Of a stretch of DNA of 64,000 bases, positions 5,401-64,000 are shown one piece after another. Position 1 is the first letter of the stretch. Each line of letters begins with the position of its first letter. Under the pieces are notes generated by a model. The model was given only the letters and a program-made list of their open reading frames with translations, did no database searches and was not told the DNA's origin. Made by a program: the position numbers and the translations under genes. Origin of the DNA: Parelaphostrongylus tenuis (Eukaryota > Nematoda > Chromadorea > Rhabditida > Metastrongylidae); the NCBI GenBank assembly GCA_019055375.1, contig JAHQIW010001340.1:1-64000 (forward strand), given 5' to 3'.

Positions 5401-8400
5401 ACTCCCGCTAGAGGTTCAAAGTTATCAGCTCAACATTATTGGGCATATAGTTATTGCATCATATTGATGCTGAAAAGCGATTAATAAAGAATTTTTCAAC
5501 AAATAATTATGGAAAAGTAGGGTCAAGAATACCTAACCTCTCGACGAAGTTCGTCGGTTCCCTTGTCAACCATAACAGCTTGCAGCCGTTGTTGTGAGCT
5601 AGCAAGTTCACGATCCATGTCTCCGATCTTTGAAACTAATGCAGTTAGAGAGGAATGGATAATGATGAGGCTACTTTGAGGCTTGAATTTCACCTTTTCA
5701 ATTTGAGATTCCAAAAGCACATCGCGGTCTGCCAGCTCTTTTTGCAGGTTTTCCACGTTGCTCCTAAGCAGTCTCAACTGAAAAACTTCATATTTGGAAG
5801 ACTTTCATGCCAATATCAAAGATATACTCCCACCCGCTTCCCCCTGGACTAACAAGTAGAGGCTTGATCAATATCTCTTGCCGAAGCTAGTCCAAACTCT
5901 CGTAACGGACACTCAAGTTAGTTTCAGCTATTACACGAATTAGTTTGATTACGGACAAATACAAATTGCATTAAGGACAACCAAAATAGAAAGGGGGAAG
6001 GATAATCGAACTCACTACTCTTCAGGATATGATTACCTCAGTCTGATACGTTTCCTGTTGCTCGATTCTTTCCGTCTCAGAATTACGTCTCAACTGGTCT
6101 ATGTGCTCTTCGAGGCGCTTCTTCTCGAGGGCTACTGCAAAGAAAGCAACTGTTTTGAGACAATATGATCTGATAACATGTTTTGAGCCTTTCATAAGGT
6201 TTGTTACGGCACTTATAAAGTGCTAGACATGTGTTTCAGCCTTCCACCCTCATCAACCATTCGTCGTCAATTTCTCTATAGGGAATAGGTTCCAACGAAT
6301 TGACTGAACGAAAAGACACTATGCTACTAATAAGGCTAGAAGGCCGAAACACCTATCTAGCACTTTATAAGTGGCGTAGCACACCTTGTGAAAGGTTCAA
6401 AATATGCTATCAGATTACATTGTTTTCAAAGTTACCTTTTGAAAGGTTTTGTGTTAACACAAGTAGTAATTTAAACAGAGTGCAATACCTAAAATCCTTA
6501 GTGATATACAAAACTTTAAAAATCCAAAAGTGATCGAACAAGCACCTCATCTTTCCCAGCGATTGCGTGCTAACGTGTTTGCACTACTGGTGCTCTTGCT
6601 TGAGTGCCAATTATGCTTTATAAAAACCACATTGATAGTTGTGTGCGTCTTATAGTCGAAGTACAAAGCCAAGCCTATCGAATGCTTGGTATAAGCGGCA
6701 GAGTGGTGAATTCTAGGAAACTGATGGCAATAAGCGGGAATATAGGTAGATCATGGCGATGATTTCACCACTGTGATAGAAACGAGTTCGATAAAGCTAA
6801 ACTTCTCGGCGTTGATCGATTCTTAAGGGATGAGCCAAGTAATCGAATTTATCTAGTTTTGTTTGAAGTGACTAAAATTAAAGACGCATGGTGGCCTACC
6901 GATGCATCAGGTCAGTGCTGCTATCCTTCAAGATAAGTTTGGTACCAATTCATCGACCCCGGAGAATGAAAGGCTTGGTGAGCCTTGGAAGCGGGAATGA
7001 ACCATGAACTCTATATGAGTCGCGCAAGACACCTCTAATCCTGCTTCATATGTGCCTTAAAAGCTACATAACATAGGTTAAACACACCCAAGTAGATATA
7101 GTTTTCATGCAAGCCTAATCGTGTTCATGCCAGGGTAACAATATTATCTTCAGTGCCTTGGACAATGTCATTCTAGCTACCGGCACCACACGGTACAATC
7201 ATAGTGTTCAACATAGATGAGAAAAATACTGCTGAAAAGCGTATAGGTAGTGAGCCAGCAGATTATGAGCCCGATTATATTACAAATTATGCAACAATCT
7301 CTTACTTGACTCTATCTTATCCTTTAGCTCATTCTCTTTTATCACATCAGGATGACTCAGCAGTCGGATCTGAAAACATGACTCTTAATCTTTAACATCT
7401 TGTTGACCAACATGAATGTCTCAGCCACCTTTGCAGTATCGAGCTCTGCTTCTTTATCTCGTAACGATGTTTCCAACCCGTCAATTCGTCCAATCATTTG
7501 AGATATCCGGTGATCTGACTGTTGTAGCTAAAAATATCTATCGACACCGAGGAATGGCAGGTTTCGTTCTCTTTTCGTAATACTAGTCTTCTCTTTTCGT
7601 GAAAAATGCCTTGAAAAGCGATTGCCAATTACGCGGTAAGAATAGCAGCAGTCTTCACCGAAAAATCATACAAATATACGATACATTTAAGTCGAACGTG
7701 AATCCAACGCTATTAGAGACGTTTCCACATAATGAATAATCAAAATCGATTGGATTAGGAAGCCCTTGGCAGCCACCCGAGACGAGTAAGAAATGCGACT
7801 GGCTATATCTTCTTCTTTTTCATTTTCTTGCGAAGGTCAGATCAAATATAAATAACATACCTGCTCATTCTTCTCACTTAATTCCCCTTTGATGTTAACA
7901 AGTTCGCCCTCCAAACGTTCTATTCGCCGATCTCTTTGCTCCATTTGCTGGTTCTTACCTTCCAACTTTTGCCTGAGTGCGTCAACCTTAATGATGACTT
8001 CTGAGAGAATAATCTAAGAAACATCAGTTCTATTTAGCTTTTACTGATATTAGCCTTTTTTTCCCTGCTATCAGAGGTTAGAGGTGTTCTGCGATACACG
8101 TGATCGATCTACCGATGGTCGATAGTTCGATCCAGTCGTTCAAGGTTCACCAAGTCTTCCATTCCTTCGGAATCGGTGAATTGGTACCAGAATAGGATGG
8201 GAGGATAGCAGTACTGACTCAATACATCGCTAGGAGCACCACGACTCATTGTAAAGACCAGACATGCATCGAGTCATGGGCAACAATGCTACGAATGGAG
8301 TCGAATGCATGGCGCATCCCTCAGAGATTGATCAAAGCTGAGAGCTTTGTCCTTTATCCTCTATTTAGAAGCATCAGCCTACACCTCTACCACTTATAAT

Positions 8401-11400
8401 CAAATTAACTACGGATTCAAACTAGCACCAGTGGTAGCGAATCATATCTGCCGCCCCATAACATAACGATTATGCCCACTGAAGAGACAAAATCAAAAGT
8501 TCATCGCACTTTTAGCCTATGACTCTGTTGCAGTGGCTCTCTAGAGAGACAGAGACAGATGGAGAGGGGGTAACAATGAGTAGCAAGTATGGATTCTCCC
8601 TAGGGCTCCTACTTACACATAGAGCTTCTCGGATTCATTCGGGTGTAGCATGAAGCTTATTTGTTGAATTGGTTTCGCCTAGCGCAAGCAATTACCAATC
8701 ACATAACTGCGGGCGGATACTTAGCTGAACAGCTGATACAAATCGAATACCCACAAAACACACAATTCGCCGTACGCATAAAACGCAAACTGAATCGCTT
8801 TAGCAGAGCAGAGCAACCAATTCCGTGAATTCTCACTCAAAATCAGCTTATATTCTTCGTTTGGCGATGATGCAGCTTACGGCCAACCAGTCTAATAGCT
8901 CTTACTGAACTGAATCACTGTTAGCGTGGTGATGTAGTTAATTTCACAAGGTTAAGCGGAGTCTGGATTTCACTACAGGATTTAGAAACAAAGTACGCAA
9001 TGTTTTGCTACTGGCGTGAGTCCTAGATAATGACTCAAACCTCATGTGAACTCAAAACTGACTTATATCGAAGGGAAAGTGCTAGTGCAACGAGAACCGC
9101 GGTAGCGCAGTGGTTAGCACGCGAAAGAGTGAGACGCAGGTTCAACGCTCGTCCTAAGTTTGAAGTTTTGTATATCACTCAGCTTTATTGATTCGAATCA
9201 TGTAATTTACAGAAGACATTCGCCAACACGGCCCAATATAAGAGTTTTACACTAGTTCCCGAGAAGGTCCTAGAGCTTGGCACGCTGTTGTTTCCAAGTG
9301 TTGTTTTCCAAGTTTTGAGCAGAATTTAGAATTACTACCTGAACAATTTACAAGAATTTTTTACTTTACTGATTCTTAGCAGTGCTATCATGTTGTAGTA
9401 CAAGTCTAAGAATACTGAGTGATGTGTAAAACTTTGAAAGAGGCACAAGAATCGGACCCGCATCTCACTTTTCCGGAAGCGCGTTCTAACCTATTGCACT
9501 ACCGCGGCTCCCGTTGGGTTATATGCTTTCGTTTGATCTTCAACTGTGTTGGAATATCAACTTTTGAAAACCTTTAATAGGTATCTTACAAGAAATAAGA
9601 GACCTACATCGCCTTGCAAAAGGGTATGCTGTTGTTCCCGATTCGTGATTTGTTGTTTAAGTAATTGGACATGCTGCCGTAAATCAGCCGCTTGCTCTTC
9701 GGCAGTCCTCATCCTGGCCTGACATTGGGCGAGCTCTGCTTTCCTTTCACTCAGTTCCACCTCTGACCGCTCCATTTTCATTCGTAACGTAATCTTAAAC
9801 GACAAATATCAACTACTTCAAACCGAATAGTATTAACCAATTGAGGGAAAAGCTATAAAGTCCTACGAAACATTCACACCATCTCGTGGTTGGTGACGGT
9901 TTTTGTCGGTGAAATCTCGCGGTTGATTTGTTCGACTAAGTCGCAATCTGGATAATTCATCTTGCAGCTCATTTATGCGGGCTTGCTGAAAGACCATCTA
10001 CATCGCTCAATCTTTCAAGTTGAGTAATGCCACTTGTACGCAACAAATCACATGCCATACAAAACATAATAAACCTTATCATCCACTAAGCGAAGTGCAT
10101 TTTCAAGCGCCATGCGACTTGTAGGATCCTAAAATAGCCATTATGAAATGAATTTAACAAAGACGAAAAACTCTACTGCTCTCACAACTTGTCCCAGGAT
10201 CTGTTGCTCGTTCGCTTTCAACATCTCCTGCAACTGAGCCACCGTGTCTTCAAGTTCACGAATTCGCACATCAGCCAAGCTTGTACGTCCTACAACGAGT
10301 GCATGGATTCTCCGGTACTTTCCCGTTACCGCCCAATGTCTCGATTCCTTGGGAAGAACGCGTTCTCTGATTTTTTGTTAATGCTTTAGTAGTCACTCGA
10401 TAGTGTTGAGAACGAGGATTTTTAATAGTGTCTTTTATTTCCCAGAAGGCCTTTTTATGGTGTTGCAATAGCACGAATACAATTATGTTTCACACTCGGG
10501 CATTTTTCGCACGACAAAGCAATTTTCCAAGTGTTCTAGTAGTCATTAGATAGCTTAAATTTTGGAAATTTTAATGCTGTTTGGTTTCTGTAAAGGAGTT
10601 TCAAATGACTTTTTGTAATAGAACGTTTGTTTGCGAAACCAAATCTTCTTTTGGCTGCTACAGCGCAATGAGAAGTCTTTTAAAAACTCAAGCATATCAT
10701 CAAATTCGTCGGGAGCTATGCTATCAAATGAAAGCTGAAAGTCTAGAGAAAAAGCTTTGTCTAGCGGAAAGTCTAGCAAGTGCGAAATATAATTTTATTA
10801 CTACTGTTACAGCGTAATAAAAAGACCTTTTGAGAGATAAAATATACCATCAAAATTTTTGTGACCTAAGCTATCGAATGACTACTAAAACTCAAAAAAA
10901 AAAGTTAGAAAACACTTTTTTCCGAAAAGATTGAAACAGGAGGCGGATAACATTTTTCTATTGTAATGATAATGCCTTAACAATCTGACAATTATAGGTT
11001 AAGAGTGGAACGAGGGAATTAAGGATAAATAGGTCTAACGCGAAATGAATGATTAGCAAGGAGGTCACCAAAATGCAATCTGCCCTGATTGCACGACCAA
11101 GAGCACAGAAGTGGATTCATCTTCAAAGAAAAACAGTGATTCAATAAGCAAATGCTTGCGAATACATAATATCCTACTATGAGCAGTGTATCTGAAACTC
11201 TTTCATAGTGCTACTCGACAATTGTTTTATGCTCTTGAAATTCGAAAAATATAAAATATATAATGATAGCAGAGCGGTGTTGAGTTCGGCAACACTGAAA
11301 GTCTGCCCAACACAATAGACACATTTATCGATTCTACCATGAAATATGAGGGGAAGCTGGCCGAGTGATAAGCGATGCACGCTGTCAAGAGGCAAAGGTT

Positions 11401-14189
11401 TTGGTCAATCCGTTTCTTCAGCCCTTCAGCAGTTTCTGGTAGGACGTGAGAACGCCTTTGCTCGAGCACCTTCGGGATTATGAGGAGATCTGACTCTATT
11501 AGCATTCTAAGACACTTATGGAGCAAACGAAATCTTCAAGCAGCAGTCCAAATAAAAGACGACACGTAAAGTATTCAGCGGCCCTTGGAACGATGAATAC
11601 GAAAAAAACGAATCGAATGCTAGCAGCACTAGGATCTGAATGGTAGAAATGTCATGAAAGATGGCGAAGAGATAGAACTGAAAAATTGTGAAACACTGTC
11701 GAGAGTGAATGCTACACAAAAGTCGACGATGCACAATGCAATGGATAGATTGACGAGAAGCTCCTAAAATTTCCAAGAGTCGAATTGATACCGAAAAAAG
11801 CTACGCTGACAATTTTGTTGTATGCAGACGACTGATCTACAAAACGTATCGAAAGTTGATAAAAAGACTTTCCAAGAACAGATTCCAGTAATGATCAGTA
11901 TTTTGCTCGCCGAGCACACAACAAGCAGTTGATTCTTCAGAAGTTCATTCACTTAGATCCCGAAACTCCGTCTCATAAAGCGTACTGATCGAACTTCTGG
12001 GTTGATGGAAAAAATGCTTCTGCTCTTCTCTCCCCCTTAGTAGCAGCGGTTTAAATGGTACTGACTCCCAATGTGATCAAAAGTCACAACAACTTTACTT
12101 TCGACTTTTAAAAAGACCTTCAAAAACAATAATAATGTGATAATCTGATTACATGTCTGGTATGGCACTTATGCAGAACTAGATAGCTGCTTCGCCCTTC
12201 CAAGGTCGTCAGCAGTACGGTGCCTTTCGGTTCAGTTAATCCCTGGCATTGGGATATACTCCTACTTATAAAGGAATCGACGCATGTCGAGTGACAAAAA
12301 CCCCATACATTGCAGTGACCATACCAAACCACAAAAAAGGTCAAAGCATGTTGATAGATTATCAGATTATTAATGTTTTTCAGCGAGGTCTATATGAACT
12401 GCCGCCAGTAAAGGTTTGATTTGTATTACCAACCATAGGCGCTCGACTGTGGTCACTGCAATGTCGGGGGATTTTGTCACTCGACATGCGGTGATTTGAA
12501 TAAATCGGTGTCGATTCCCTTGTAAGTAGGGAGGTACATATATCCCTGCAAGGGATTGGCTGAACCGAAAGGCACCGTGCTACTGACGAGCCGTGTAAAG
12601 GTGAAACACATGTCCAGTACTGTATAAGTGCCACATCAGACCTCACAAAAAGCTCAAAATATGTCATTAAGTTAGAACAACTCTTGAAAAACGTTTTCAA
12701 AATCGACTATTGCCAAGACTGAACCTGTTATTTGTGCTACCAACACGGTATGGAAACACTGCTTAATTTTTTTTCCAAATACCTTATTTTATTATGAATT
12801 GTGATTAATTTTACATGAATGCAAGCTATGTGGAACTGAAACTTGGCCACAAATCATGAAATGATAGACAGAAACGAGATGATTGACTGGGAACTCACCA
12901 ACATCCTGTGCAATAAACGGGGTTGCTCCAGAAGTTTGCAACAATCGCTCGGCCTCTCGACGCATTTGACGTTTCTCTCTAGAAAACATCATAAATAACA
13001 AGATAAATATTGTTCTTAAAATAATTCCAAAAAAAGAATGATTTAAGCTCAAAAAAAACAGTCGATCTTTTGATATAGTTTTGATCTAACAGCAAAAATC
13101 TATCGACTGAGAGGTGGTGATGGTACAGTGTCATAGTACACTGTGCCATCACCACATACGCCACCCTCCTTGCTTCAATGCAGGGCTGAATGTGGGGCGG
13201 GGGTCACTGATGAGGAGGACGAACCTCCGAAACACCGGTGTATGACCCTGGGCTTACCAACCCCCTTTTTTGAGCTTAAATCATTCTTTTTTTGGAATTA
13301 TATTGAATGTTTTTTTGGGGGTTTCAAAAACAGTCGATCTTTTGATATAGTTTTGATCTAACAGCAAAAATCTATCGACTGAGAGGTGGTGATGGTACAG
13401 TGTCATAGTACACTGTGCCATCACCACATACGCCACCCTCCTTGCTTCAATGCAGGGCTGAATGTGGGGCGGGGGTCACTGATGAGGAGGACGAACCTCC
13501 GAAACACCGGTGTATGACCCTGGGCTTACCAACCCCCTTTTTTGAGCTTAAATCATTCTTTTTTTGGAATTATATTGAATGTTTTTTTTGGGGGTTTCAA
13601 AAACAGTCGATCTTTTGATATTGTTCTTAAAATAATCTATGTAGCGTCTTCATTTTACTGATTTAGCAACGGCATGATGTCACAAATATTCTTCTAAGAA
13701 TCTTGCGTAGTAGGCAAAAATTCGACTTCAGATGCAAGTTGAACTCGCGTTTTTGCCTTTATCAAAGGCGATATCTGCTAACTCGAACAAAACCGTTAGA
13801 GATTGGGTGCCGAGAGCTACGATAATTCATATCGGAGAAAAAGTGGTAGTAAAGCGGTAACCTCGGTAGTATAGTGGTAGCACGCACTCTCATGTGGTAA
13901 GGGTGAATTGCGGGTTCATCTCCTGTTTAAGTTCAAGTTTTTGTTTATCACTCGACGTTCTTTTATAGATATTACTTTAAGAATTTCTTAAAAAATGAAA
14001 CAACAGACAGTAACGAGCACCTTGAGCTCAGGGCTCCAGAATGTCTTGATAGAATTCATCGTTTGGTTGAGCTTCTCTATACTCGCTTGGTAATCAGCCT
14101 TCAGCTGCTCATACTCCTCAGCTAGTGAAAGAGTGCCATGAAGTCGTCCAGTGCTTCCTCCGCCACCACCGTCCGGATAATGTGCCATT
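2493..14189 (-). CDS. elks-1: ELKS/ERC/CAST presynaptic active-zone scaffold protein
   Basis: Cytosolic coiled-coil scaffold of the presynaptic active zone; the family binds RIM and liprin-alpha. Exons read from the minus strand: 14189-14021, 12974-12899, 10289-10189, 10128-10075, 9985-9878, 9793-9608, 7986-7861, 7527-7429, 6134-6037, 5777-5694, 5627-5538, 4682-family exon at 4672-4520, 4353-4329, 4298-4156, 3523-3389, 3324-3180, 2825-2713 and 2593-2493. Diagnostic family strings are SIKTFWSPELKK (first exon into second), LLQGDVDALRQKLE (9608/7986 junction), RIEELEEALQES with ITAERE (4298-4156), QEALLAAIAEKDSHL (3324-3180) and DDSEGIWA at the C terminus. Together with two upstream exons it encodes roughly 790 residues, close to what I recall for the worm protein. 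Oddities: junctions 7429/6134 and 3389/3324 do not keep phase with the donors I chose, an in-frame stop occurs at 3219-3221, and the terminal stop after GIWA is out of frame by one base. Identity is certain; intactness is not. Confidence 0.9.
2880..3109. mobile_element. piggyBac-like MITE in an ELKS intron
   Basis: TTAA at 2880-2883 and again at 3106-3109 flank a 222-bp element. Its ends are inverted copies: CCCTTTGGGAACCA on the left and the complement of CCCTTTGTGAACCA on the right, one mismatch in 14. TTAA target duplication with a CCCTTTG terminus is the signature of piggyBac-type elements. There is no open frame, so it would depend on a transposase elsewhere. It lies between the last three ELKS exons. 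Confidence 0.65.
5344..5440 (+). repeat. tRNA-like repeat module (composite SINE family B)
   Basis: The module reads GGTAGCGCTGTGGTTAGTAC, an A-box-like string, followed by a B-box-like GGTCTAACTCCCGC, then a tail ending near ATCAGCTCAAC. It matches the modules at 9.1, 13.9 and 58.5 kb. It does not fold as an intact tRNA, and it lies in an ELKS intron. Confidence 0.55.
6165..6430. mobile_element. Palindromic hammerhead-bearing element, decayed
   Basis: The left arm (6168-6250, minus) and right arm (6300-6430, plus) are inverted copies separated by a short spacer. Both carry a hammerhead-like segment. On the plus strand it is ATGCTA, a core mutated to CTAATAA, GGCTAGAAGGCC, GAAAC, then TAGCAC. 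On the minus strand it is TTGATGAG with GGCTGAAACACATGTC. Core substitutions mean neither copy should cleave. The arms share outer ends (ACATGTTTTGAG-like) with the elements at 12.4 and 16.5 kb. Located in an ELKS intron. Confidence 0.65.
6795..7045 (-). mobile_element. tRNA-derived SINE (family A)
   Basis: A minus-oriented copy of the SINE found at 17.5, 63.0 and 63.4 kb. The tail resembles GGCGTTGATCGATTC, the middle holds the conserved GATAAGTTTGGTACCAATTC and GGCTTGGTGAGCC strings, and the tRNA-like head lies near 7000-7045. It is diverged from the 63-kb copies and sits in an ELKS intron. Confidence 0.6.
8070..8365 (+). mobile_element. tRNA-derived SINE (family A)
   Basis: A plus-oriented, near full-length copy. 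The head contains the B-box-like AGTTCGATCC. It is followed by TTCACCAAGTCTTCC, GAATTGGTACCAG, GGGAGGATAGCAG and the tail CTCAGAGATTGATCAAAGCT, ending near a poor A/T-rich end. The order of segments matches the copies at 48.5 and 56.4 kb. Located in an ELKS intron. Confidence 0.65.
9090..9515. mobile_element. Composite SINE family B, inverted pair of tRNA-like modules
   Basis: The plus module at 9095-9190 (CGGTAGCGCAGTGGTTAGCA, then GCAGGTTCAACGCTCG) is mirrored by a minus module at 9415-9515 (GAGTGATGTGTAAAACTT start, CACTACCGCGGCTCCCG end), with about 220 bp between. The outward order matches the pair at 58.2-58.6 kb. Neither module is a functional tRNA. Located in an ELKS intron. Confidence 0.55.
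12125..12670. mobile_element. Palindromic element with outward-facing hammerhead ribozymes
   Basis: Two arms of about 240 bp in opposite orientation flank a centre containing CATTGCAGTGACC-like sequence near 12310-12450. Each arm carries CGAAAGGCACCGT just before a hammerhead. The plus-strand ribozyme at 12577-12620 is nearly complete. The minus-strand one near 12215-12165 has a damaged core (GAAG for GAAA). Both read outward, about 50-60 bp from the element ends. No protein is encoded. Located in an ELKS intron. Confidence 0.7.
12577..12620 (+). ncRNA. Hammerhead ribozyme, near-intact
   Basis: GTGCTA, core CTGACGA, helix II GCC..GGT, GAAA, then ACACATGTC with the cleavage triplet GUC after a two-base-pair helix III, then CAGTAC. 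Helix I pairs at five of six positions (one A-C mismatch next to the cleavage site). This is the minimal short-helix-III form known from Penelope-like elements and retrozymes. Activity is probably reduced by the mismatch. Confidence 0.7.
13201..13248 (+). ncRNA. Hammerhead ribozyme, intact (unit 1)
   Basis: All core elements are present: helix I GGGTCA 13201-13206 with TGACCC 13243-13248 (six perfect pairs), CTGATGA 13207-13213, helix II GGAGG 13214-13218 with CCTCC 13224-13228, GAAA 13229-13232, and helix III CAC..GTGT. The predicted cleavage is after A13242 (triplet GUA). Helix III can form only two to four pairs with a very short loop, as in minimal hammerheads thought to act as dimers. 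Confidence 0.85.
13473..13520 (+). ncRNA. Hammerhead ribozyme, intact (unit 2)
   Basis: An identical copy of the unit 1 ribozyme, with helix I GGGTCA 13473-13478 and TGACCC 13515-13520 and predicted cleavage after A13514. Cleavage at both sites would release one 272-nt RNA (13243-13514) with the 5'-hydroxyl and 2',3'-cyclic-phosphate ends that such RNAs circularise from. Confidence 0.85.
13735..13965. repeat. Composite SINE family B, two tRNA-like modules
   Basis: A minus module (13735-13805, AAGTTGAACTCGCG) and a plus module (13855-13965, CTCGGTAGTATAGTGGTAGC with GCGGGTTCATCTCC) lie back to back. The plus module looks tRNA-like but lacks an acceptor stem that pairs, so I do not call a tRNA gene. 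It abuts the first core ELKS exon at 14021. Confidence 0.5.
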
Positions 14190-16164: not shown

Positions 16165-16420
16165 ACCAAGAGCAATCGAGTGCACAACACTCTGCGTTCG
16201 ATGATAATTTCACTGGACATAGAGTGTAAAACGTTCGTATTCGCTAACTCTTAGTGTGGGGAAGGCGCTTCCACACAGATTAACAAAAGACGAGAAAGGG
16301 TAACTGCCTGACTGACGAGACTGCAAGGTCGAAACACGTGTATCGGGCTCTATAAGTCAGCCCTTTTATTAACAGACCACACACCATGCGTGGCTCAAAA
16401 ATGATTTTGTGGCATATTGA
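16165..16420 (+). mobile_element. Hammerhead-bearing element, single arm
   Basis: A plus-oriented arm related to the one at 53.2-53.5 kb. Shared strings are AACGAAAGATATGATATA and CAATCGAGTGCACAACAC at the inner side, then the ribozyme, then an outer end with AACAGACCACAC. It lies between the ELKS N-terminal exons. The opposite arm is missing or replaced by the 16.43-16.70 element. Confidence 0.6.
16306..16348 (+). ncRNA. Hammerhead ribozyme, intact covariant
   Basis: Helix I GCCTGA 16306-16311 pairs with TCGGGC 16343-16348 (six pairs, one U-G). Core CTGACGA 16312-16318. Helix II GAC/GTC plus a U-G pair. GAAA 16331-16334, then CACGTGTA with cleavage after A16342. Both helices differ from the 53.4-kb and 12.6-kb copies by paired substitutions. 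Confidence 0.8.
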
Positions 16421-16429
16421 AATCTGATA

Positions 16430-16700
16430 AGATGTTTCAAGCCATTCATGAGGTTTGATATGAAACTTCTAGTGTTAGACGTATGTTTCGGCTTTCTAGC
16501 AAGCCTCATCGGTAGCTCATGCTTCACGTTGGGTGCTCTTTTCACCTTGCGCAAAATGTTGCATGTTCGGCATCAATTCCCTATGACAGAGGCGAGTAGC
16601 TGAACTGCGTGCACTACTGATGAGGCTTGCTAGAAAGCCGAAACGTACTTCTAGCACTAGAAGTGTCATAGCAGGCCTCATGAAAAGCTCAAAACGTTTT
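16430..16700. mobile_element. Palindromic hammerhead-bearing element, compact
   Basis: Inverted arms 16430-16520 (minus) and 16605-16700 (plus). The plus arm has an intact-looking CTGATGA core at 16617-16623 with helix II GGCT/AGCC and GAAAC, then TTC before TAGCAC. Helix I is disturbed by an insertion (GTGCACTA). The minus arm has a CCGATGA core. The outer ends read TTATCAGA, as in the other members. It is repeat-derived and the long open frames across it are shadows. Confidence 0.65.
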
Positions 16701-17519
16701 ATCAGAGTATTTTTGTTGATGTCCAGCGCAGCTAAATCCACGACCTTCACGGATTTGAGCTTTGAGGGGATGTATACCTGCGCTGTGGCTCTTTTGATCA
16801 ACAAAAAACGGAACGTACACTTTTAAAAGATATGTCATGTAAGCAAGATGAATGAATGTTATCCATTTTGCTCGACGTGAGCATAGATGTTGATAGATTT
16901 GCTCAGAGCCGACATCCATTAGACTTAGAAATTGACGGATCTTTTTGAAATTTCTCGGAACAGCACTTGTCAAAGTATAGATAGTAACTCTCTGAGGAAC
17001 ACGTGTGTTGATTTGAGCAAACTATTTAGAGAGTTTTCATTGAACAAATCTATTTCAAAAGACTTATAGTAGTCGTTCGATAGCTAGAAAACAGCGCTTC
17101 TAGCCCTAAGCTTACTTTCTCGAAGCTCCTCATAGTTCGCTATAGGAATAAGAAGATCACGTTTCGCATTTCGGAGTAGTTAGCCAGGCACTTGACTTCA
17201 CCGAGGATTTGCTCGTAGTAATTCTAGCAAACTTTAGATTTTTTGGGTACCGTATTGTCACAAAAACAAGAGATCACCAAGGATAATTTTACTCTCTTTC
17301 GTTTGGAAAAAAGGAAGAAAAAACGCTCATGCCTCTTGAAAAGCGGAAGCCTCAAAAGTAGTATGATTGTGTAAGTAGAAAAACATAGAGCGTCAAAACG
17401 ATAAGAAAAACCAAGGAATTTTACACGACAGAGAAAAAAACCAATGAAACAACAAATCGCGCTGCGGGCAGCGATTTTAACACAAGCCCGAGAGGGTTAA
17501 CAAAATGAGATAAAAAGGG

Positions 17520-17825
17520 TAAAGGATAAAGCTCTCAGCGTTGACCAATCTCTGAGGGATCTTCCATGCATTCGACTATATTCGTAGCATTGTTAGAGGC
17601 GATTGAACGCACCCTTGGCTTTCAGAATGATTCGCAGTGGCCCGCTGGCATTTCAAGTCAAAGCTGATATCCTCCTAGACAGGTTCAGTATCAGTTCACC
17701 GATCCCGCAAGGATGGAAGGCTTGGCGAACTTTAAGCGTACGATCGAACTGTCGACCATCAATTGATCATCACGTGTGTGTCGCAGGGTACCTCTAACCA
17801 CTGCGTCAAATGCGCTCCTTACCTC
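17520..17825 (-). mobile_element. tRNA-derived SINE (family A)
   Basis: A minus-oriented, near full-length copy. Tail GATAAAGCTCTCAGCGTTGA and ATCTCTGAGGGATC come first, then GGCTTTCAGAATGATTCGC, CTCCTAGACAGGTTC, and the tRNA-like head ending TACCTCTAACCACTGCG at about 17805. It lies in the intron between the ELKS N-terminal exons. Confidence 0.65.
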
Positions 17826-45008: not shown

Positions 45009-48000
45009 ATGTCCTGTCTCGCGATCACTTTCAACGGTCCAAAGACGAGGAATGGCCGTCGTCTATTCGAGAACTTCGTACGAGCCAACAAGTACAGCTT
45101 CTGGAACCGGTAAGCTTTCATCGTTCACATGCGCGCACAATGCTTTTGTTGCTTTCGTATAGCTTGAGCTTTCCAGGGAGCTCGTACTAGCTGTGGACTC
45201 GCTCATTTTTATGGGATTCATGCGACCGTGTACGATATTTGTCTCGGGATCTGTTACACACCTCCAGTCACTACGTACTGCTTGGGCTCGTCGCGTGCTA
45301 AAACCAGCCGAGGGTTATTTGATCAGCTCACTAGGTGAGCCTTTACTTTCCATTCTTACAACTTCTCCTCCTAGAAATTACAAAGCCAAAGCTGAAAGAA
45401 AGTCAGAAAACTCATACTTGACTTGCACCGCAGGTGAAGTCAAAGCTATTATACCTTCAACATTAAATATTTAACGTCTACGGTATTTATCGCATCCATA
45501 CATGCTCCTAAACTCCTGCTCAACCTCGTAGCAATGCCTCATCACCGTCTCGTTCCGAAACTTCAGCGTAATCTTTATCCTTGCTAAAAGCAAATTCGGC
45601 CCAGATCGCGGCTTGTCTTTGATGTTGTCATTTGGCAACGCCATGTTGTGTTAATTGTACGTTATGACCACCACCGTCACACCTTGAGGTCGCCAGATTT
45701 ATAGTATAATTGGTCTAAGTGTTCAGTGTTTCTTACTAAGCGATTTTTATGCACAAAAGAAACAAAAATATTTGAAAGCGTATATGCTTTACTATTTGAA
45801 ACTCTCTATAGCAGGGTGTGATCTGCTTCTTAGAACTGGAGAAGATTATGCACATGAAATATGACTTATTTAACAAATACCAATCACTGGGGGCTCATAG
45901 CGTAGTAGTTATAGGTGTCCAACAATGCACGTATGTATGGTCGCTGGTCCAATCTCGCGCCCTGAGCTCAAGAAGCTCTTCGTCCTTTCAAAGTCGGCAA
46001 ATTGATGCCAACTTTGACTAGGAGGATTATAGCGCCGACTTGATACATTAGTAGGCTATCGAAAATTGTTGCCTAGACCAAATATATGTTTTTAAACACC
46101 TCTCACATGCTCGAGGAAGTCGAATGAGTGGCACACTATTCAGGGATTGATCCACATAACATCGTCTTTGGTTACGGTAGTTTTCCCAAGTGTAGAGTTG
46201 AAGATTAGTGTTCATGAGATACCATGGCCTGAAACATATGCGGTATGGAGTTTGGGACGCATGCTCGATCATGTATGTCTGGTATTGCGTCAGAGCGCTA
46301 ATTGCTTCTTTTTCGGAGTACGTCTAGACGACGTCGACGGCACAGCACCTGTTGCTGACCGTGCAATGTGATACGCTTGTACAGGTGCGGAACAGATGTG
46401 TTTTGATATTATAGGTAAGTCCCGAAACAGATAAGCATCCAACAACGTTACAACACTAAAACCACACGCGCACCCGGCGAGTTTATTGGCTGTTGGATAC
46501 GATCCGAGTACAAAAAGATCCTTTCAGTTCCGAATCATTATGGGGCGTTACGCTTTTAGAATAGTACCCAGATCTTTCCTATCTCTAACAATGAACGATG
46601 GGTTTCCTTGGATTTCAAATTCTATAGATTTTTCATATCACAATTTTGATTTTTTTCAATCGCAAACTAGGATATTTCTTTCATGATATTGCTGCTTTTG
46701 AATTTTTTCAATCGCAAACTAGGATATTTCTTTCATGATATTGCTGCTTGTCCCAGCATGATTTCAAATCTTTAGCTGCTTTCCTGGGTGAGGCTCATGC
46801 ACAAAATAAGCATAGCAAAAACCATAAAACATGAACTTAGTCATGGAATCTCATTGTCAATGGAAATCATCAAACTTGTTCTATTCTTCGCTTATGACGT
46901 GGTGAATATCCGCAGTTTATCAGAACAAAATAAAGCGAGTTGAAGTTGTTGAAGTAGGAGGCAGTTTACTCACAATCTCCATATTTTAGTACAAGAGATT
47001 TTTTAACTACACCAAAATTTTGGTAAGGAAAACGCTTTGACGTTGAAAAATGAAGTAGGACAGTAGATTTTTGGCTACAATGGACTTCGTAAATTTTACC
47101 TCAGGATAACGAAATTATATATTCAATAGCTAAGCACCGAAAATCTTTTCAAACGGCCCATACCCGACGCTAGAAGGTTTGTGCACTTCGCTTTCTTCGT
47201 TCTATAACGTATGAGACCATCCGCCCAAGTGTTAGAGATCACTTGGTTAATACCAAGCTCAAGCACGTCAGCTTAATATGAGCACATTAGACAATTTACA
47301 TAGATTGATTATTGATCTGAATTTAATTAAAAGTTGGTTTGAATCAAACCGACCCATTGTTGGAAGATTTATTTGAACAAATATGGATAGATGACTAAAA
47401 AGCTAACTCCGCCGTTATTCAGGTGAGATGGGAGCGATCCAGACGGTGGAGCAGATGCACTTCGTGCCGTTGGCGGACGTGCTCTGCGATGCTATCGTGA
47501 GTCTGACACGGCTCGGACGTGGTACGACATTGCCCGCCGTCCGTCAGTACGTCATCCGGAACTGTCCATACGTGGCTCCACCATCTATGGAGATGGTCAA
47601 ACAGACTGTGGCTAATCTTACAGCCACAGGACTCGTCTATAAGATGGGTGACCATCTATTCGTCTCCGTGCCGGCACAAACCACAGAGAAAACCAAGGTA
47701 AGTTCCAGGAGATGATGAGTTCTTGAGCATAATATCACATGTAGAACTGAACCGAGTCCACCGATCTACACTTCAGAATACATTTACAATTAATCATTAT
47801 GTAAACACTCGCAAAAACGAAATAAATAGTCCGTTGGTCGAACATTTTTACGCGATAGAACAATTAATCGGTTATCCTACTTTTACCTTTACGGTTCTCA
47901 CGATGTGGTTAATGTGGTGGAACGACTTCCAACACAACGATGCCGAACCATCCACAACATCAAACACAAATCATAACAGGTTTTCGCCTCTTTCTGCGCT

Positions 48001-52515: not shown

Positions 52516-52999
52516 TCTGTCTCTCGAATTTGTGAAAGTAAGCGAGAATTTCTTCGAACCTTATCTATGGTGTCATCTACCAGACTTACCTTGAGATGAC
52601 AGTCATCACAAAGTCGTTCGCGGCATCAATCAACTCTCTCAGTTAGAGCTGGTTCACAGGGTTCACTACTTATGAGTCTTTCGATTATCTACGCAGAGCA
52701 CTGTCGCGGTGGTTTTTGAGTCTCTCTCTGTTTCCTTTTTCTCTTCAATTCCCAGCAGCATTCGTGGCTTAGGAAGGCAACAAGTAGCGTATCGTTACTT
52801 TCTACAATCAATCAGGTATACATGATATCAGGTCCCTGTACTTGTCTTACTGTACCTTCGTATTCAACTGTTTTTCAGACGTCACTCAAGGCGATCTAAT
52901 CTGAAAATATGCTTGATAGTAATTTTTGATTTACCCAATAGTGTAGAGTGCTGTGCAAAAACATTTGCGTCAGCTAGGTGTTATATTTGTGCCATGCAT

Positions 53000-53470
53000 G
53001 TGGTCAATCATGAGTCCTTATACAGTGCTATACACGTGTTGCGGCCTTGCTCAGCCTCGTCAGTAGCCCACTGCCTTTGATTTTAGCTAAGCCCTTTCGG
53101 GTGTAACCAACCCTCTTACATAGAGGTGACACAGACGTACTATTTACATAAGCCAGTAAGTGAAATTATCACTGAGTGGGCATTTGACGTGGTAGTCTAT
53201 GGAAACACTCGAAACGAAAGGTATGATATATCTGACGAGACCAGCCAAGGGCAATCGAGTGTACAACACCACCCATTCTTCGATGATTTCACTTAATGGC
53301 GCGTGTGAATAATACGTCTGTGTCTCCTCTATGTAGGGCAGTTGGGTTCCCTCCGAAAGGGATTGGCTCAGACGAAAGACGCCGTGCAACTGACGAGGCT
53401 ATAAGGCCGAAACACGTGTATTGCACTGTATAAGTAGTCATAAAAGACTTCATGAAAAGCTTAAAAATAG
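53000..53470. mobile_element. Palindromic element with outward-facing hammerheads
   Basis: The left arm (about 53010-53110) carries a minus-strand hammerhead with GCAA for GAAA. The right arm (about 53330-53465) carries an intact plus-strand one. The centre shares AACGAAAGGTATGATATATC and CAATCGAGTGTACAACAC with the 16.2-kb element. A GGTGACACAGACGTACTATT-like string precedes each arm in opposite orientation. Downstream of ham-1. Confidence 0.7.
53384..53426 (+). ncRNA. Hammerhead ribozyme, intact covariant
   Basis: Helix I GTGCAA 53384-53389 pairs perfectly with TTGCAC 53421-53426. Core CTGACGA 53390-53396. Helix II GGC/GCC plus U-G. GAAA 53409-53412, CACGTGTA, cleavage after A53420. Compared with 16306-16348, four of six helix I pairs differ and pairing is kept throughout. 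Confidence 0.85.
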
Positions 53471-53639: not shown

Positions 53640-53995
53640 CAAACGTTTCGACGTCCTCGTCATCTTCAGAGCCGATAATTCGAGTCGAATGTCGACAGTT
53701 GTTCGTTCTCTGTTTGTCTTCGTGTTCATTGTCGATCAAGTGGAATCTTCTTCGGTTGACAGCGCTCAAATAAGGAAGCTCACTCGGCGATGTCCTTATA
53801 TAGAAGACAGTTTTTATGGGCAGACAGTTACCGGCTGAAGTTAGTCATTTGAGCGGAATCAACCGAAAAAGATTCGACTCTCAATTGACAACAAACACGA
53901 AGTCCCAACGATGACGAATGACTCTGGACAGTTGACTAGAATGATCGGCTCTGAAGAAGACGAAATTACTTTGTGCTATTGACTCAATCAGCAAG
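53640..53995. mobile_element. GAAACGTT hairpin repeats, inverted pair
   Basis: The minus copy (53640-53790) reads CTGAAGATGACGAGGACGTC then GAAACGTTTGTCG. A plus copy (53880-53995) reads CAATGACGAATGACTCTGGA-like and GGCTCTGAAGAAGACGAAAT. The arms face each other as in the 61.2-61.5-kb pair. The frame at 53563-53838 is repeat-derived. Confidence 0.55.
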
Positions 53996-56064: not shown

Positions 56065-59000
56065 ATGGATGTGCCGCCACATCAGGAGCTGCCGGAGACG
56101 TATGAGTGGTTTGCGGAACAAGTGGCTGGTCATCATCCATCAGTAGTTAAAAATGGCAAGAGAGAGATTGGTAGGCTCTCCATGTCTGAATTTCCATCAT
56201 TTTTTGGCCTGATCTGTGTCACTGATTTCTACAAGGCTGTCACTTAGTTGGTGGGAAACAACAGTAAAAGTATCGGTTAACGCAAACACTCTCAGGTATT
56301 CTAAAGAAGCATGGCAGTGACAAAGTACTGAAACGAAAGTTAGAAGCACTTCGTGGAGAATGTGAGGTACGTGTACACATCTTTGATTTTATCTGAGAAT
56401 TGATTCTTGTAGTTTAAAATGCAATGTAGTAAGGTGAGTGTGTGTGTGGCGCAACGGTTAGGGTGCCCTGCCCTCAATGTGGTTGATTGTTCGATCCCGC
56501 GCTCAAGCCTTACCAACCCTTTCATCCCACGAGGTTGGCGAGTTGGCACTAGACTTTTCTGGGAGGATAGCAACATGGATACATCGGTAGGCCATCGCGA
56601 GCCATTGCAAGAACTGGATATGCATTCAAACCATCTCTAACAATGCTTGATGAAGTCAAATGCTTGGCGCATGCCTCAGAGATTGATCAGACCAAAAGCT
56701 CTATCCTCTGTCCTCATTACACTTAACAAAGCAAGCTGTGTAATTGGATGTTAAAAATTTGCTACAGAGTCGAAGCTGTACGTAATACTGCATGGGAAAC
56801 TAGATTTTCAAAAATTTACATTTATAATTGAATCAGTGAAAAAGACACATAGAGTTCATCTACATCCTTTGAAGCCACTATCACCCACTTATATCCTGTA
56901 ATATTAGAACATCAATGTGCATCACTGCATCCCGATGAGGTTTCCTAGTCGTCGCTCGTCACGTACAGGTAGGTACTTACGCAACTAAATGAGTGTGGCT
57001 GTTTTAGGTCAATGTCTACAAGATGCTGGCAAGGGCATTGCGTCACGGAACTTCCGGACAACTCAACGTTGACAGCGGAGACGACGAGATGGAGTCAGCT
57101 GATTAACGTGATTACGAATTCTGTTGATAGTCGTCATGTGAACTATCCACCTGTTTAGATCATATGGATGGCCAAACATTCGAATCAAAGACGTTGAAGG
57201 CCTTGCTTTATTGACTCCACGTTTTTATGGCGTCACTTCTCTTGCAATTGACAGAGAAGGTAGTTTCCTTAGTATTCACAAAAATGATACCAATGTAGTT
57301 TTTCTTGAGTAAAAAGAAGGCTCCCTAAAGCCTGTTTACCTCGACTTGAGCTTTGACATTGGTGTTGGACGAGATTTTCGCGTGATGCGTCGAAGAACGG
57401 CAGCTCTTGCCTCAACCTTTTGGTGACCTTGCGCACAAATTTCAATATGTACGCTAGCGCGGCGTACCGTACGTATGGATTTCGATGCGCAGTCTTTTTG
57501 ACTCTGGTGTCCTTCGCCGCTCACAGGTTTTCCACAGTTTTTTGTTGTCTGTCAGTAGCTTATTAGAATAAAATGTTGTATTGGGTGATAGTAGGAAAAA
57601 AGCTATTCTGACTTGGTAATATGAGAAAAAAATCGTTCTTTGGACAATTTTACTATTCAACAAACATTTGAGTAGTACTCAGCTATTATGACAACTCCAG
57701 TTGCTATAGTGAATCGTAGTCATCATGTGTAGAGGTTTAAAATGCTGAGCCTGGACGAGGTCTCGATAGGGATAACATTAGTCAGATGGGGTTCGTAACA
57801 GCGAAATTCCCGCAGCATAGCAAGCTGGCTTAGTTTCAGATCACGACTTTTTGATTTTGGAGGATGTGACAGCTGTTTATAGACTGCCTGCAATATTGGA
57901 TGTAAAGATGGGAAGAATAACATTCGATCCAGTAGCGGATCCGCTAAAACAAGAAAAAGAAATGAAGAAATATCCTCCACAACGTACATTAGGTTTCAGG
58001 CTTCTTGGATATCGGGTAGGTCTATACCATTCCTCACTTCATTCTGACTGGAAATTCCTCAAGTCTGTGAAAAATTAAGTATACGTTTAAGTGCTTTGAA
58101 ACTTTGGAAATACTCTTACTCTATTTTTTTAAGAGCTTTGAAACTTTGGAAATAATCTTACTCTATTATTGGTGAAAATACTCTTAGATGTTTGAGAGTA
58201 TTGAGTGGTATGCAAATCACTGGGCCCCAGGCGGGAGTTGAACTCGCGCCTCATCTATACAGCGGGCGAGTGCTACTTTTAGCCCATCGAAGTTACCGTT
58301 TTGCTGCCAATTTGTCTTCGATATATCCTATTGCAGCTGTCAACAACTAATCTTTAGACGGATTCGATCGAGTAAGCATATACTGGAACAAGACCCAGTT
58401 GATCTGACAGCTTTTCGTATAGTATAATCTGTTTGGTTTGTTATATTGAAGAGTGATAGCCAAGTAGTGGCCTCGGTGGTGTAGGGGTAGTACGCGCCCT
58501 CGGTAAGGATGAAATACGGGTTTAACTTCCGCCTGGAGTCAAATGTTTTGCATACCACTCAATCTCCTACATATGTATTTATAACATCATGACACTGTTA
58601 TAAAGCGGGGAAATTAAAAGATTCAGGTGGAATCATAGGCGTTATAATTTTGAATTCGTAATGCGTCGTTATCGCTCGAGACACCTAACAGATGTCATAT
58701 CCGCCTTTGGTGGGTGAAACGAGTTCGGACAGGCGTATGGTGTCATTCCGTAGCAGCTGTGCGATGTTTCTGCATCCATTCGAAATCGTCTGAGAACTCG
58801 CACATGGCAACAGTCGTCTTGTGATGTGTGATCCCGACCTCGTATGGGTAATTACTGGTTATCCAGCACCGGTTGAAGCGATTCAAAGGAAAGAAAGCCG
58901 CACGTTGTTTATGGCACTAACGTCAAGATGCCGCGAAACAGATAATAATCCCTTTTCCGGGTACTGATAAGTAAAAAGATGCTTATTAGCTTGTCACTGG

Positions 59001-60258: not shown

Positions 60259-61230
60259 TTTTTATGTTGCATAATGATTGAGTATTTTGATGAACCGATT
60301 TGATCTCGGACGAGTTTTTCATGCTTTTAATACAAATTACGCAGTATTATTCAAACTGAGAAGATCAGGAAAGTGAGAAGAGATTAACACACGATGTCAG
60401 ACAAGTGACAAGAGGAGAGCCGTAGAGCAAACATGAGCCATTGTACTTATTGCACAACGTCTACTATTGACCCATTGACCACATCACAAATACTAATAGA
60501 ATGAGGCACGGAAGTCGAAACGGCGAAGAGAAAACGCATAGATTCGAAACCAACATTATCAGGGAACGGATGCTGATGAAAATATTCAATCTCATTATAG
60601 CAAAACGATATGTTTGGATCACTGAAAAAGACTTCCAGTTAAATTTCCTATGAGTCAAGCCGCCGAAAAGTGCTTGTAGAGAACATTCATAGTGTCGAGG
60701 TCCAGCAGGACAAGCAGCTGTGTTTGAGAGAAACGAGGAACGGCGATCATCAGGCACCGTTGTCCACAACTGTTTTCAAACCATCGAGATTCAGAACATG
60801 GTTGATTTCCAACAACCATTACATGAGGAAAAGTTTCATTCATTATAAGTGGATCACTGAAATATACGCAGTTTAATTTTGAATTTAAATCGTGCATTAA
60901 TTGTTGCCAATGGGTAAAACATTGAGTGAAGATAGATGGTCTTACCGGTTTTCAAAAGGAAATCCATCAACCGTATCAGGGCAGGTAGGAGCGATATGTT
61001 GCCAGCGAAGTATAAGCTCCATAAGGTCACAGCTAGAGTTCACACTACTCAGGCGTCGGAGATCAGAAACGGCTCGACCTGGAGATCTCTGTCATTTCAG
61101 AAGAAAAATGGAAAAGATAACGATAGCATTTTGTGATTTTTTGGTCATTCGCGGTGCATGTAGAAAATTTGTACAGAAGTGACTTATTGATTGCTTCTTT
61201 TCTAACTTAGTTAATATATGAAGTTGAACA
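60259..61230. other. IPMK 3' flank without a supported gene
   Basis: Frames at 60655-60897 (minus) and 60901-61182 (plus) overlap others of similar length. The phrase LHKVTARVHTTQASEIRNGS in one plus frame looks protein-like but has no defined exon borders. Confidence 0.35.
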
Positions 61231-61234
61231 ATAG

Positions 61235-61495
61235 AATTTACTCGGCCAACGTTTCAAAATTTTCGCCGTCTTCAGGGCCGATGATTCGGTTCAGATGTCC
61301 ACACTCGTTCGCTTTCGTTGTGGATCTTCGCCGAGCGATGTTTTTCATTCGACCAATGCTCCACCGAGGACGGTTAGACTCGGAACAAAGGTAAAGAAAG
61401 ATTCACAACGGTAGCGAACGACTGTGGACAACCGAGCCGGATCACCGGCTCTCAAGCGATGACGTCGAGATGTTGGCCGAATAAATTTTATTTAT
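61235..61495. mobile_element. GAAACGTT hairpin repeats, inverted pair
   Basis: The minus copy (61235-61345) reads GCCCTGAAGACGGCGAAAAT then TTTGAAACGTTGGCCGAGTA. The plus copy (61385-61490) reads GGCTCTCAAGCGATGACGTC then GATGTTGGCCGAATAAA. They face each other, and their outer ends share AATAAATTTTATT-like tails. Confidence 0.6.
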
Positions 61496-63404: not shown

Positions 63405-63705
63405 GGATAAAGGATAAAGCTCCCGGCGTTGATCAATCCCTGAGGGATGCGCCATGCATTCGACTTCAATTTCTAACTTCGTTTGAGGTGATTTAATGCA
63501 TACCTGGCCTTTAAAATGACTCGCGGTGGCCTCTCGCTGAACCGAGTCAGTGCTGCTTATCCTCCCAGACAAGTCTGAGACCTGTCTGGTACCAAATTAC
63601 CGACCCCGGAAGGATGGATGGCTTGGTGAGCCATGAGCGCGAGATCGAACCATTGACCTCGTGTGCGACGCAGAGCACCTCTACCCACTGCGCCACATGC
63701 GCTCA
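63405..63705 (-). mobile_element. tRNA-derived SINE (family A), best-preserved minus copy
   Basis: Tail GGATAAAGCTCCCGGCGTTG with AATCCCTGAGGGATGCGCC, then CTCGCTGAACCGAGTCAGTG, CCTCCCAGACAAGTCTGAG, GGATGGATGGCTTGGTGAGC, GCGAGATCGAACCATTGACC (B box on the complement) and CACTGCGCCACATGCGCTC (A box on the complement). Length about 300 bp. Confidence 0.75.
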
Positions 63706-64000
63706 TGGGTATCGACTTAGTGTTCAATATATATCACGCCAGTCTCTCAATTACTAGGGGAAAAAGGTGCTCTAGAATCAAGACTAACTATCCATGAAAG
63801 CCCTGAAAATAGTTGTAGAAGGCTCTCATTGGCGAAATTAGTGGATAGTGAACACTATTGCGCACATCCCTATCACGCGTAAAAAAGACCCGTTATTACA
63901 CTTATCGAAGAGCAAAACGAACCGATATGCTGCTGAGAAGTTCATCTAACAAAGCAATTGTCTCCACGTTCGAAGCCGCTTCTTTGTAGCTAAGATTGAG

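Follow-up and report, generated by a model that had tools for sequence, protein, structure and literature searches.

Retrozymes have been described in animals together with the suggestion that Penelope-like elements (PLEs) or long interspersed nuclear elements (LINEs) move them (PMC7229834, PMC7761336), and a 2024 review carries the proposal that they arose by reduction of PLEs (PMC11722881). Among PLEs, the Anolis (lizard) protein cuts and extends both DNA strands in vitro and uses two internal start sites bounding a 'tail' (PMC11167929), and rotifer Penelope has inverted pseudo-long terminal repeats (pLTRs), a one-sided tail and repeats of 8–10 bp (PMC3846280). Here we describe an insert at positions 13007–13636 of a 64,000-nt stretch of Parelaphostrongylus tenuis DNA (the window; contig JAHQIW010001340.1), which, judged from sequence, is very probably a non-autonomous animal retrozyme of a strongylid nematode, relying on a PLE protein for its copying. 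The element would depend on such a protein and is not itself a PLE, since its 272-nt unit is too short to encode a reverse transcriptase and a GIY-YIG endonuclease.

The insert resembles metazoan retrozymes without long terminal repeats (LTRs) in its unit length, which lies within their 170–400 nt, its low GC content (44%), its type I hammerhead with a short helix III, its dimeric to multimeric organization, its target repeats (longer than 4 bp there, at least 9 bp in 31 of 36 loci here) and the presence of PLEs in the same genome (PMC7229834). It is unlike them in its host, nematodes not being among the groups named in the excerpts of that paper, and in its head-to-head inserts with fixed ends at two sites, A and B, which those excerpts do not describe; the words 'inverted', 'inversion' and 'twin priming' occur 0 times in the main text. 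Plant LTR retrozymes (PMC4918200) are likewise non-autonomous and hammerhead-bearing, and circular RNA is a property of theirs, but they differ in their type III hammerheads, LTRs, 4-bp repeats and probably Gypsy-type enzymes (PMC7761336). The endonuclease PLEs (Anolis Poseidon, PMC11167929; Adineta Penelope, PMC3846280) share head-to-head inverted terminal pieces, a 'tail' at one end, two internal start sites, an upstream hammerhead and short direct repeats with the retrozyme, which for its part encodes no protein, carries a more complete hammerhead (3-bp helix III) and is built of units of 272 nt rather than 2985. The insert is a retrozyme of the animal, non-LTR kind, every feature tested being present, so that the retrozyme-like reading of an earlier note on the letters alone is borne out, and the 'borrowed enzymes' which it invoked can be narrowed to, most likely, those of a PLE. 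The PLE link, and even a PLE origin, had been put forward in print before; what seems new is the matched insertion signature set out below, and no report of retrozyme inserts with such ends was found in a literature search covering titles, abstract openings and passages.

The core of the insert, 13054–13625, is a tandem repeat with a period of 272 (2.1 copies, 99% match), whose near-identical units 13054–13325 and 13326–13598 differ, by reading, solely in the length of one T run. Both hammerheads within it have complete type I cores, and a motif scan places the predicted cleavage sites, which bound the 272-nt unit, where the earlier note had put them. Helix II has five pairs in each hammerhead, as claimed there, whereas helix I has seven contiguous pairs, one of them G-U, instead of six; helix III is short (ACA/CCGG/UGU, by reading). 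Rfam yielded no hammerhead in the whole window at gathering scores nor in 12900–14000 at E ≤ 10, and the hammerheads were therefore scored by motif scan against shuffles: the window holds four, versus a mean of 0.02 per dinucleotide shuffle and a maximum of 1 in 100 shuffles. The 272-nt RNA is predicted to fold better than its shuffles, the hairpin reported for each unit is present, and the GC content of the unit, 44.5%, falls below the 45–50% that delimits metazoan non-LTR retrozymes. Besides the unit and the target repeat, no terminal direct repeat and thus no LTR was seen at the insert, primer-binding site and polypurine tract not being part of the scan, and a search of viral_contigs for exact copies of the hammerhead 36-mer found none.

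A search of the 481.5-Mb host genome with the unit returned 1,174 first-look candidates, the best 40 of which were scored and gave 201 matches. The 39 places fetched and the window make up 40 loci, of which 37 are distinct after removal of three alleles or duplicates; older retrozyme-like clusters (76–84% identical) in two of them, L059 and L060, were kept out of the count. The insert thus belongs to a dispersed family whose members are distinguished by their flanks, which rules out assembly duplication of a single locus. All 40 loci scanned contain at least one complete hammerhead, and tandem arrays reach about 12 units (L052, both blocks summed).

The inserts follow a rule of orientation. 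The outermost blocks are minus then plus, that is head-to-head, at 28 of the 37 loci and plus then minus at none of the 37, and this order means that both outer ends correspond to 3' sides of the RNA. With units numbered from the base that follows the predicted cleavage site, 27 of the 28 head-to-head loci pair an outer end at site A with one at site B (binomial p 1e-7): all 27 A ends fall at unit 33–71, and 25 of the 27 B ends at 103–114, the remaining two lying at 121 and 131 (BLAST medians 58 for A and 109 for B). The inverted fragment at the left edge of the window insert, which the earlier note had recorded without explaining it and whose 39 nt show a 97% match to the unit, is what priming on both strands of the target would be expected to leave. 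As a test of which block primed first, block lengths were compared, and the B block is not longer than the A block (medians 374 versus 407, p 0.64). By reading, the single-orientation loci L032 and L062 carry a few inverted or target-derived bases at their inner edge; at L062 this filler resembles repeated abortive priming from a target end.

Exact direct repeats of at least 9 bp flank the insert in 31 of 36 loci (L059, at a contig end, being left out), with lengths of 9 bp (3 loci), 11 bp (2), 12 bp (14), 13 bp (5), 14 bp (5), 15 bp (1) and 19 bp (1), so that 24 of the 31 measure 12–14 bp and 27 measure 11–15 bp; these lengths are maximal, may contain chance or microhomology bases and were counted without a chance control. 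The 19-bp repeat of the window is indeed exact, but its length, called unusual in the note, probably reflects microhomology and is not a special feature, given that 11–15 bp is usual in the family and that, at either edge, some of the 19 bp are common to target and element. Microhomology between target and RNA averages 2.69 nt at B (26 ends) and 2.25 nt at A (28 ends), compared with 0.83 and 0.66 when repeats are shuffled among loci; a simulated null gives 0.78, with maxima of 1.54/1.57 in 5,000 runs. From this excess at both sites, both strands of the target break seem to have primed on RNA. A possible target motif close to the cuts is no more than suggestive: among the 14 loci whose repeat measures 12 bp, position −2 is A in 12, +1 is G in 10 and +2 is T in 10.

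Variants within the blocks bear on the template. A variant of L044 is found in all six covering units of both blocks and in no other locus examined, one of L060 in three of four covering units, spanning both blocks, and again in no other locus examined, and one common to both blocks of L055 also occurs once in L066. In the loci examined, no block with two or more covering units has a fixed variant missing from the other block. This pattern fits, without proving, the synthesis of two cDNAs from one RNA molecule, and the many-unit blocks fit a circular template. Divergence is 0.24% within a block, 0.37% to the other block of the locus and 0.43% to other loci, differences too slight to carry much weight.

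PLEs are abundant in this genome, and the two PLE inserts of which both ends are available match the retrozyme in their insertion signature. A GIY-YIG search gave 1,723 candidates, and all of the best 150, which were scored, exceed the cut-off, with open frames of up to 902 aa. Of 22 neighbouring GIY-YIG pairs within 6 kb, each assumed rather than individually confirmed to be one insert, 20 are minus then plus, none plus then minus and two on the same strand. The PLE at L070, the one locus fetched from this search, with an 893-aa open frame containing RVT_1 and GIY-YIG domains, forms a head-to-head insert with a 12-bp repeat; BLAST puts the ends of the insert 67 and 113 nt downstream of the predicted cleavage site (60–63 and 110–113, by reading, allowing for the repeat). 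That site, after 5536, belongs to a minimal hammerhead placed by eye, with an A-C mismatch at the base of helix II, and its activity is uncertain. For a mini PLE insert in L060, BLAST gives 60 and 108 as the ends (55–60 and 104–105 allowing for the repeat, here up to 14 bp), and in L058 one end of a third, diverged PLE falls on the same B motif. The pattern expected of insertion from two start sites on both strands is found at 27 of 28 two-ended retrozyme loci and at 2 of 2 two-ended PLE inserts. In addition, PLEs stand in tandem with a period of 2985 in three contigs (C2880, C2909 and C1932) among the 40 matches scored, which suggests multi-lap or multimeric copying of PLE RNA too. The nearest named relatives of the PLE protein are in Necator, Ancylostoma and Haemonchus, the top match overall being 73%. 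We note that at L058:2001-3023 a retrozyme copy sits inside a 70%-identical PLE, close to the B hairpin of that PLE.

At both sites, PLE and retrozyme also bear a weak resemblance in sequence. MAFFT aligns PLE GAATCATACTGAA with retrozyme GAATTATATTGAA at site A and PLE ACAGTCGGTCTTGGGA with retrozyme ACAGTCGATCTTTTGA at site B, and a CAGTCGR...YCGACTG stem can be written in both elements with one compensatory pair. The local score over unit 81–140 is 39 in sense, versus 31 in antisense; none of 1,000 shuffles reaches 39 in the PLE 5' region, although 27 of 1,000 do against the whole PLE. On its own this similarity is weak; what counts is where it lies, at the start sites.

We suggest that transcripts of tandem units cut themselves at the hammerheads and would be ligated into 272-nt circles. 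The reverse transcriptase/GIY-YIG endonuclease of the PLE would bind this RNA in the region of sites A and B, which resemble the two positions where PLE inserts end. The endonuclease would cut both target strands about 12 bp apart, as the repeats imply, and cDNA synthesis would start from both target 3' ends, at site A from one and at site B from the other, aided by the 2–3 nt of microhomology apparent in the junctions. Each cDNA may run several laps, in keeping with the observed block lengths if the template is a circle, and the two cDNAs would meet in the head-to-head structure that is seen and then be joined. A more specific version, to which we give slightly less than an even chance, is that a dimer of the PLE protein breaks the target symmetrically, with a stagger, and places the two 3' ends on one small RNA circle, with its subunits at A and B, for simultaneous rolling-circle cDNA synthesis, the retrozyme being a minimal substrate that has kept only the hammerhead, A and B. 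Spread of animal retrozymes by PLEs (or LINEs) has been proposed since 2020, and no test of it was found in the excerpts and abstracts covered; with ends, orientation rule and repeat length common to retrozyme and PLE inserts, the question can be put directly to biochemistry, RNA and protein both being defined, and the A/B rule bears on PLE integration, a poorly known process.

Of the alternatives, the one that merits most attention, although we consider it unlikely, keeps the PLE protein but has it read a long linear multimeric transcript, instead of a circle, from both target ends. Multimeric RNAs have been detected in axolotl (PMC7229834), in vitro the lizard PLE worked mostly from unprocessed RNA (PMC11167929), the autonomous PLEs here are also tandem with the same 2985 period, and the inner ends of 19 of 27 B blocks are bunched at unit 7–62, a crowding that a freely running circle does not predict and that might be caused by a structured stop, the second primer or a linear 5' end. 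Yet the predicted cleavage sites are crossed, by eye about ten times in the plus block of L052, where intact hammerheads should cut a multimer, and the presence of the L044 variant in every covering unit is explained simply by one circle, if also by a uniform array. Far less probable is mobilization by the protein of a LINE (APE-type non-LTR), the inverted pieces then reflecting ordinary LINE twin priming. L1 is known to show twin priming accompanied by target-site duplications and microhomology, but the outer ends here carry, by reading, no poly(A) or 3' simple repeat and lie internally at two places, inversion affects as many as 28 of 37 loci, and the same ends and repeat length recur in the two two-ended PLE inserts, a comparison that covers PLEs and not LINEs. 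Slightly more improbable still is that no priming from the second target strand took place, the head-to-head form being due to a first cDNA that primed itself or to a palindromic rearrangement. Self-priming has been proposed for palindromic junctions of rotifer Penelope elements (PMC3846280); it predicts no fixed second site, whereas in 27 of 28 loci the second outer end is found at A, with target microhomology there. An ordinary tandem satellite spread by recombination, its hammerhead a fossil, would account for arrays as long as that of L052 and is nevertheless barely credible in view of the 37 distinct sites, the direct repeats in 31 of 36 loci and the complete hammerhead in each locus scanned.

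A number of observations weigh against copying by a PLE protein from both target strands, or limit its reach. Within the family, L052 has two A ends, nine loci have a single orientation, L047 has a stray 42-nt minus match (to the palindromic hairpin) within its plus block, five loci have no repeat of at least 9 bp, and L058, L059, L066 and L068 each have a block of one unit with a variant missing from the other block; moreover, the loci are top-scoring copies, among which short inserts are under-sampled. On the PLE side, both ends are in hand for two inserts only, the motif scan of L070 reports no hammerhead, the base of helix II being mismatched, and the minimum-energy fold of the PLE segment favours a shifted stem register. 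The Anolis PLE departs from the pattern proposed here (PMC11167929): its start sites are alike on both strands, unlike the A/B pairing, its starts are not homologous to the cut DNA, unlike the microhomology seen here, and insertion is unaffected by hammerhead mutants, which argues against a need for cleavage.

Table 1. Features of the retrozyme insert, in positions of the window
Feature	Position	Strand	Remarks
Target-site duplication, left copy	13007–13025	.	19 bp maximum, microhomology included
A-primed block, inverted unit fragment	13026–13053	-	Alignment reaches 13018–13056; outer end at site A (unit position 62)
B-primed block, 2.1 direct units	13054–13621	+	Outer end at unit about 106–110 = site B
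Hammerhead ribozyme 1	13200–13249	+	Core from 13207; predicted cleavage after 13242
Hammerhead ribozyme 2	13472–13521	+	Core from 13479; predicted cleavage after 13514
272-nt unit RNA between predicted cleavage sites	13243–13514	+	Fold z −5.1
Site A (unit 33–71)	13275–13313	+	Span of A ends in 27 A/B loci; U-rich loop in predicted fold
Site B hairpin (unit 89–139, CAGTCGAT...ATCGACTG)	13331–13381	+	25/27 B ends at unit 103–114; resembles PLE L070:2633-2693
18-bp hairpin	13114–13155 (unit 1), second copy 13386–13427	+	94% paired
Target-site duplication, right copy	13618–13636	.	Exact repeat of left copy

The host is a strongylid nematode: a Storkhead-domain exon at 47407–47715 is 85% identical to an Ancylostoma duodenale protein and 79% identical to proteins of Nippostrongylus and Heligmosomoides, these matches covering 66–70% of its length. 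A minus-strand exon at 9557–9808 matches Pfam Cast (RIM-binding/ELKS; 6.4e-9, above the cut-off), so that the ribozymes lie antisense to a gene of ELKS/CAST type, in agreement with the earlier note, and a predicted 3' splice site lies, by reading, about 47 nt downstream of the start of the insert.

The other two complete hammerheads of the window, at 16301–16350 (16312; predicted cleavage after 16342) and at 53390 (predicted cleavage after 53420), belong to older, diverged elements with a mutual local similarity of 77–83%. The one at 53390 lies in a head-to-head element, 52997–53454, that is 69% inverted. Used as a query, this element gave 5,656 candidates, the best 40 of which were scored with 117 matches, and minus-then-plus pairs are seen by eye in at least nine contigs, the palindromic query making the strand of weak rows ambiguous. 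Palindromic elements at 6160–6423, 16423–16706, 53657–53963 and 61230–61492 are 67–75% self-inverted, some with degenerate hammerhead-like arms. Right of the insert, about 13860–13934 is a weak tRNA-like stretch (16.3 bits, under the Rfam cut-off of 29). A dispersed repeat with a tRNA-like head, probably a short interspersed nuclear element (SINE), is found at 63409–63706, 17521–17816, 8117–8355 and 56445–56689 and in several retrozyme flanks, where it was at first taken as part of the element before its presence elsewhere in the window was recognized; the copy at 63409 is 92% identical to the flank of L043.

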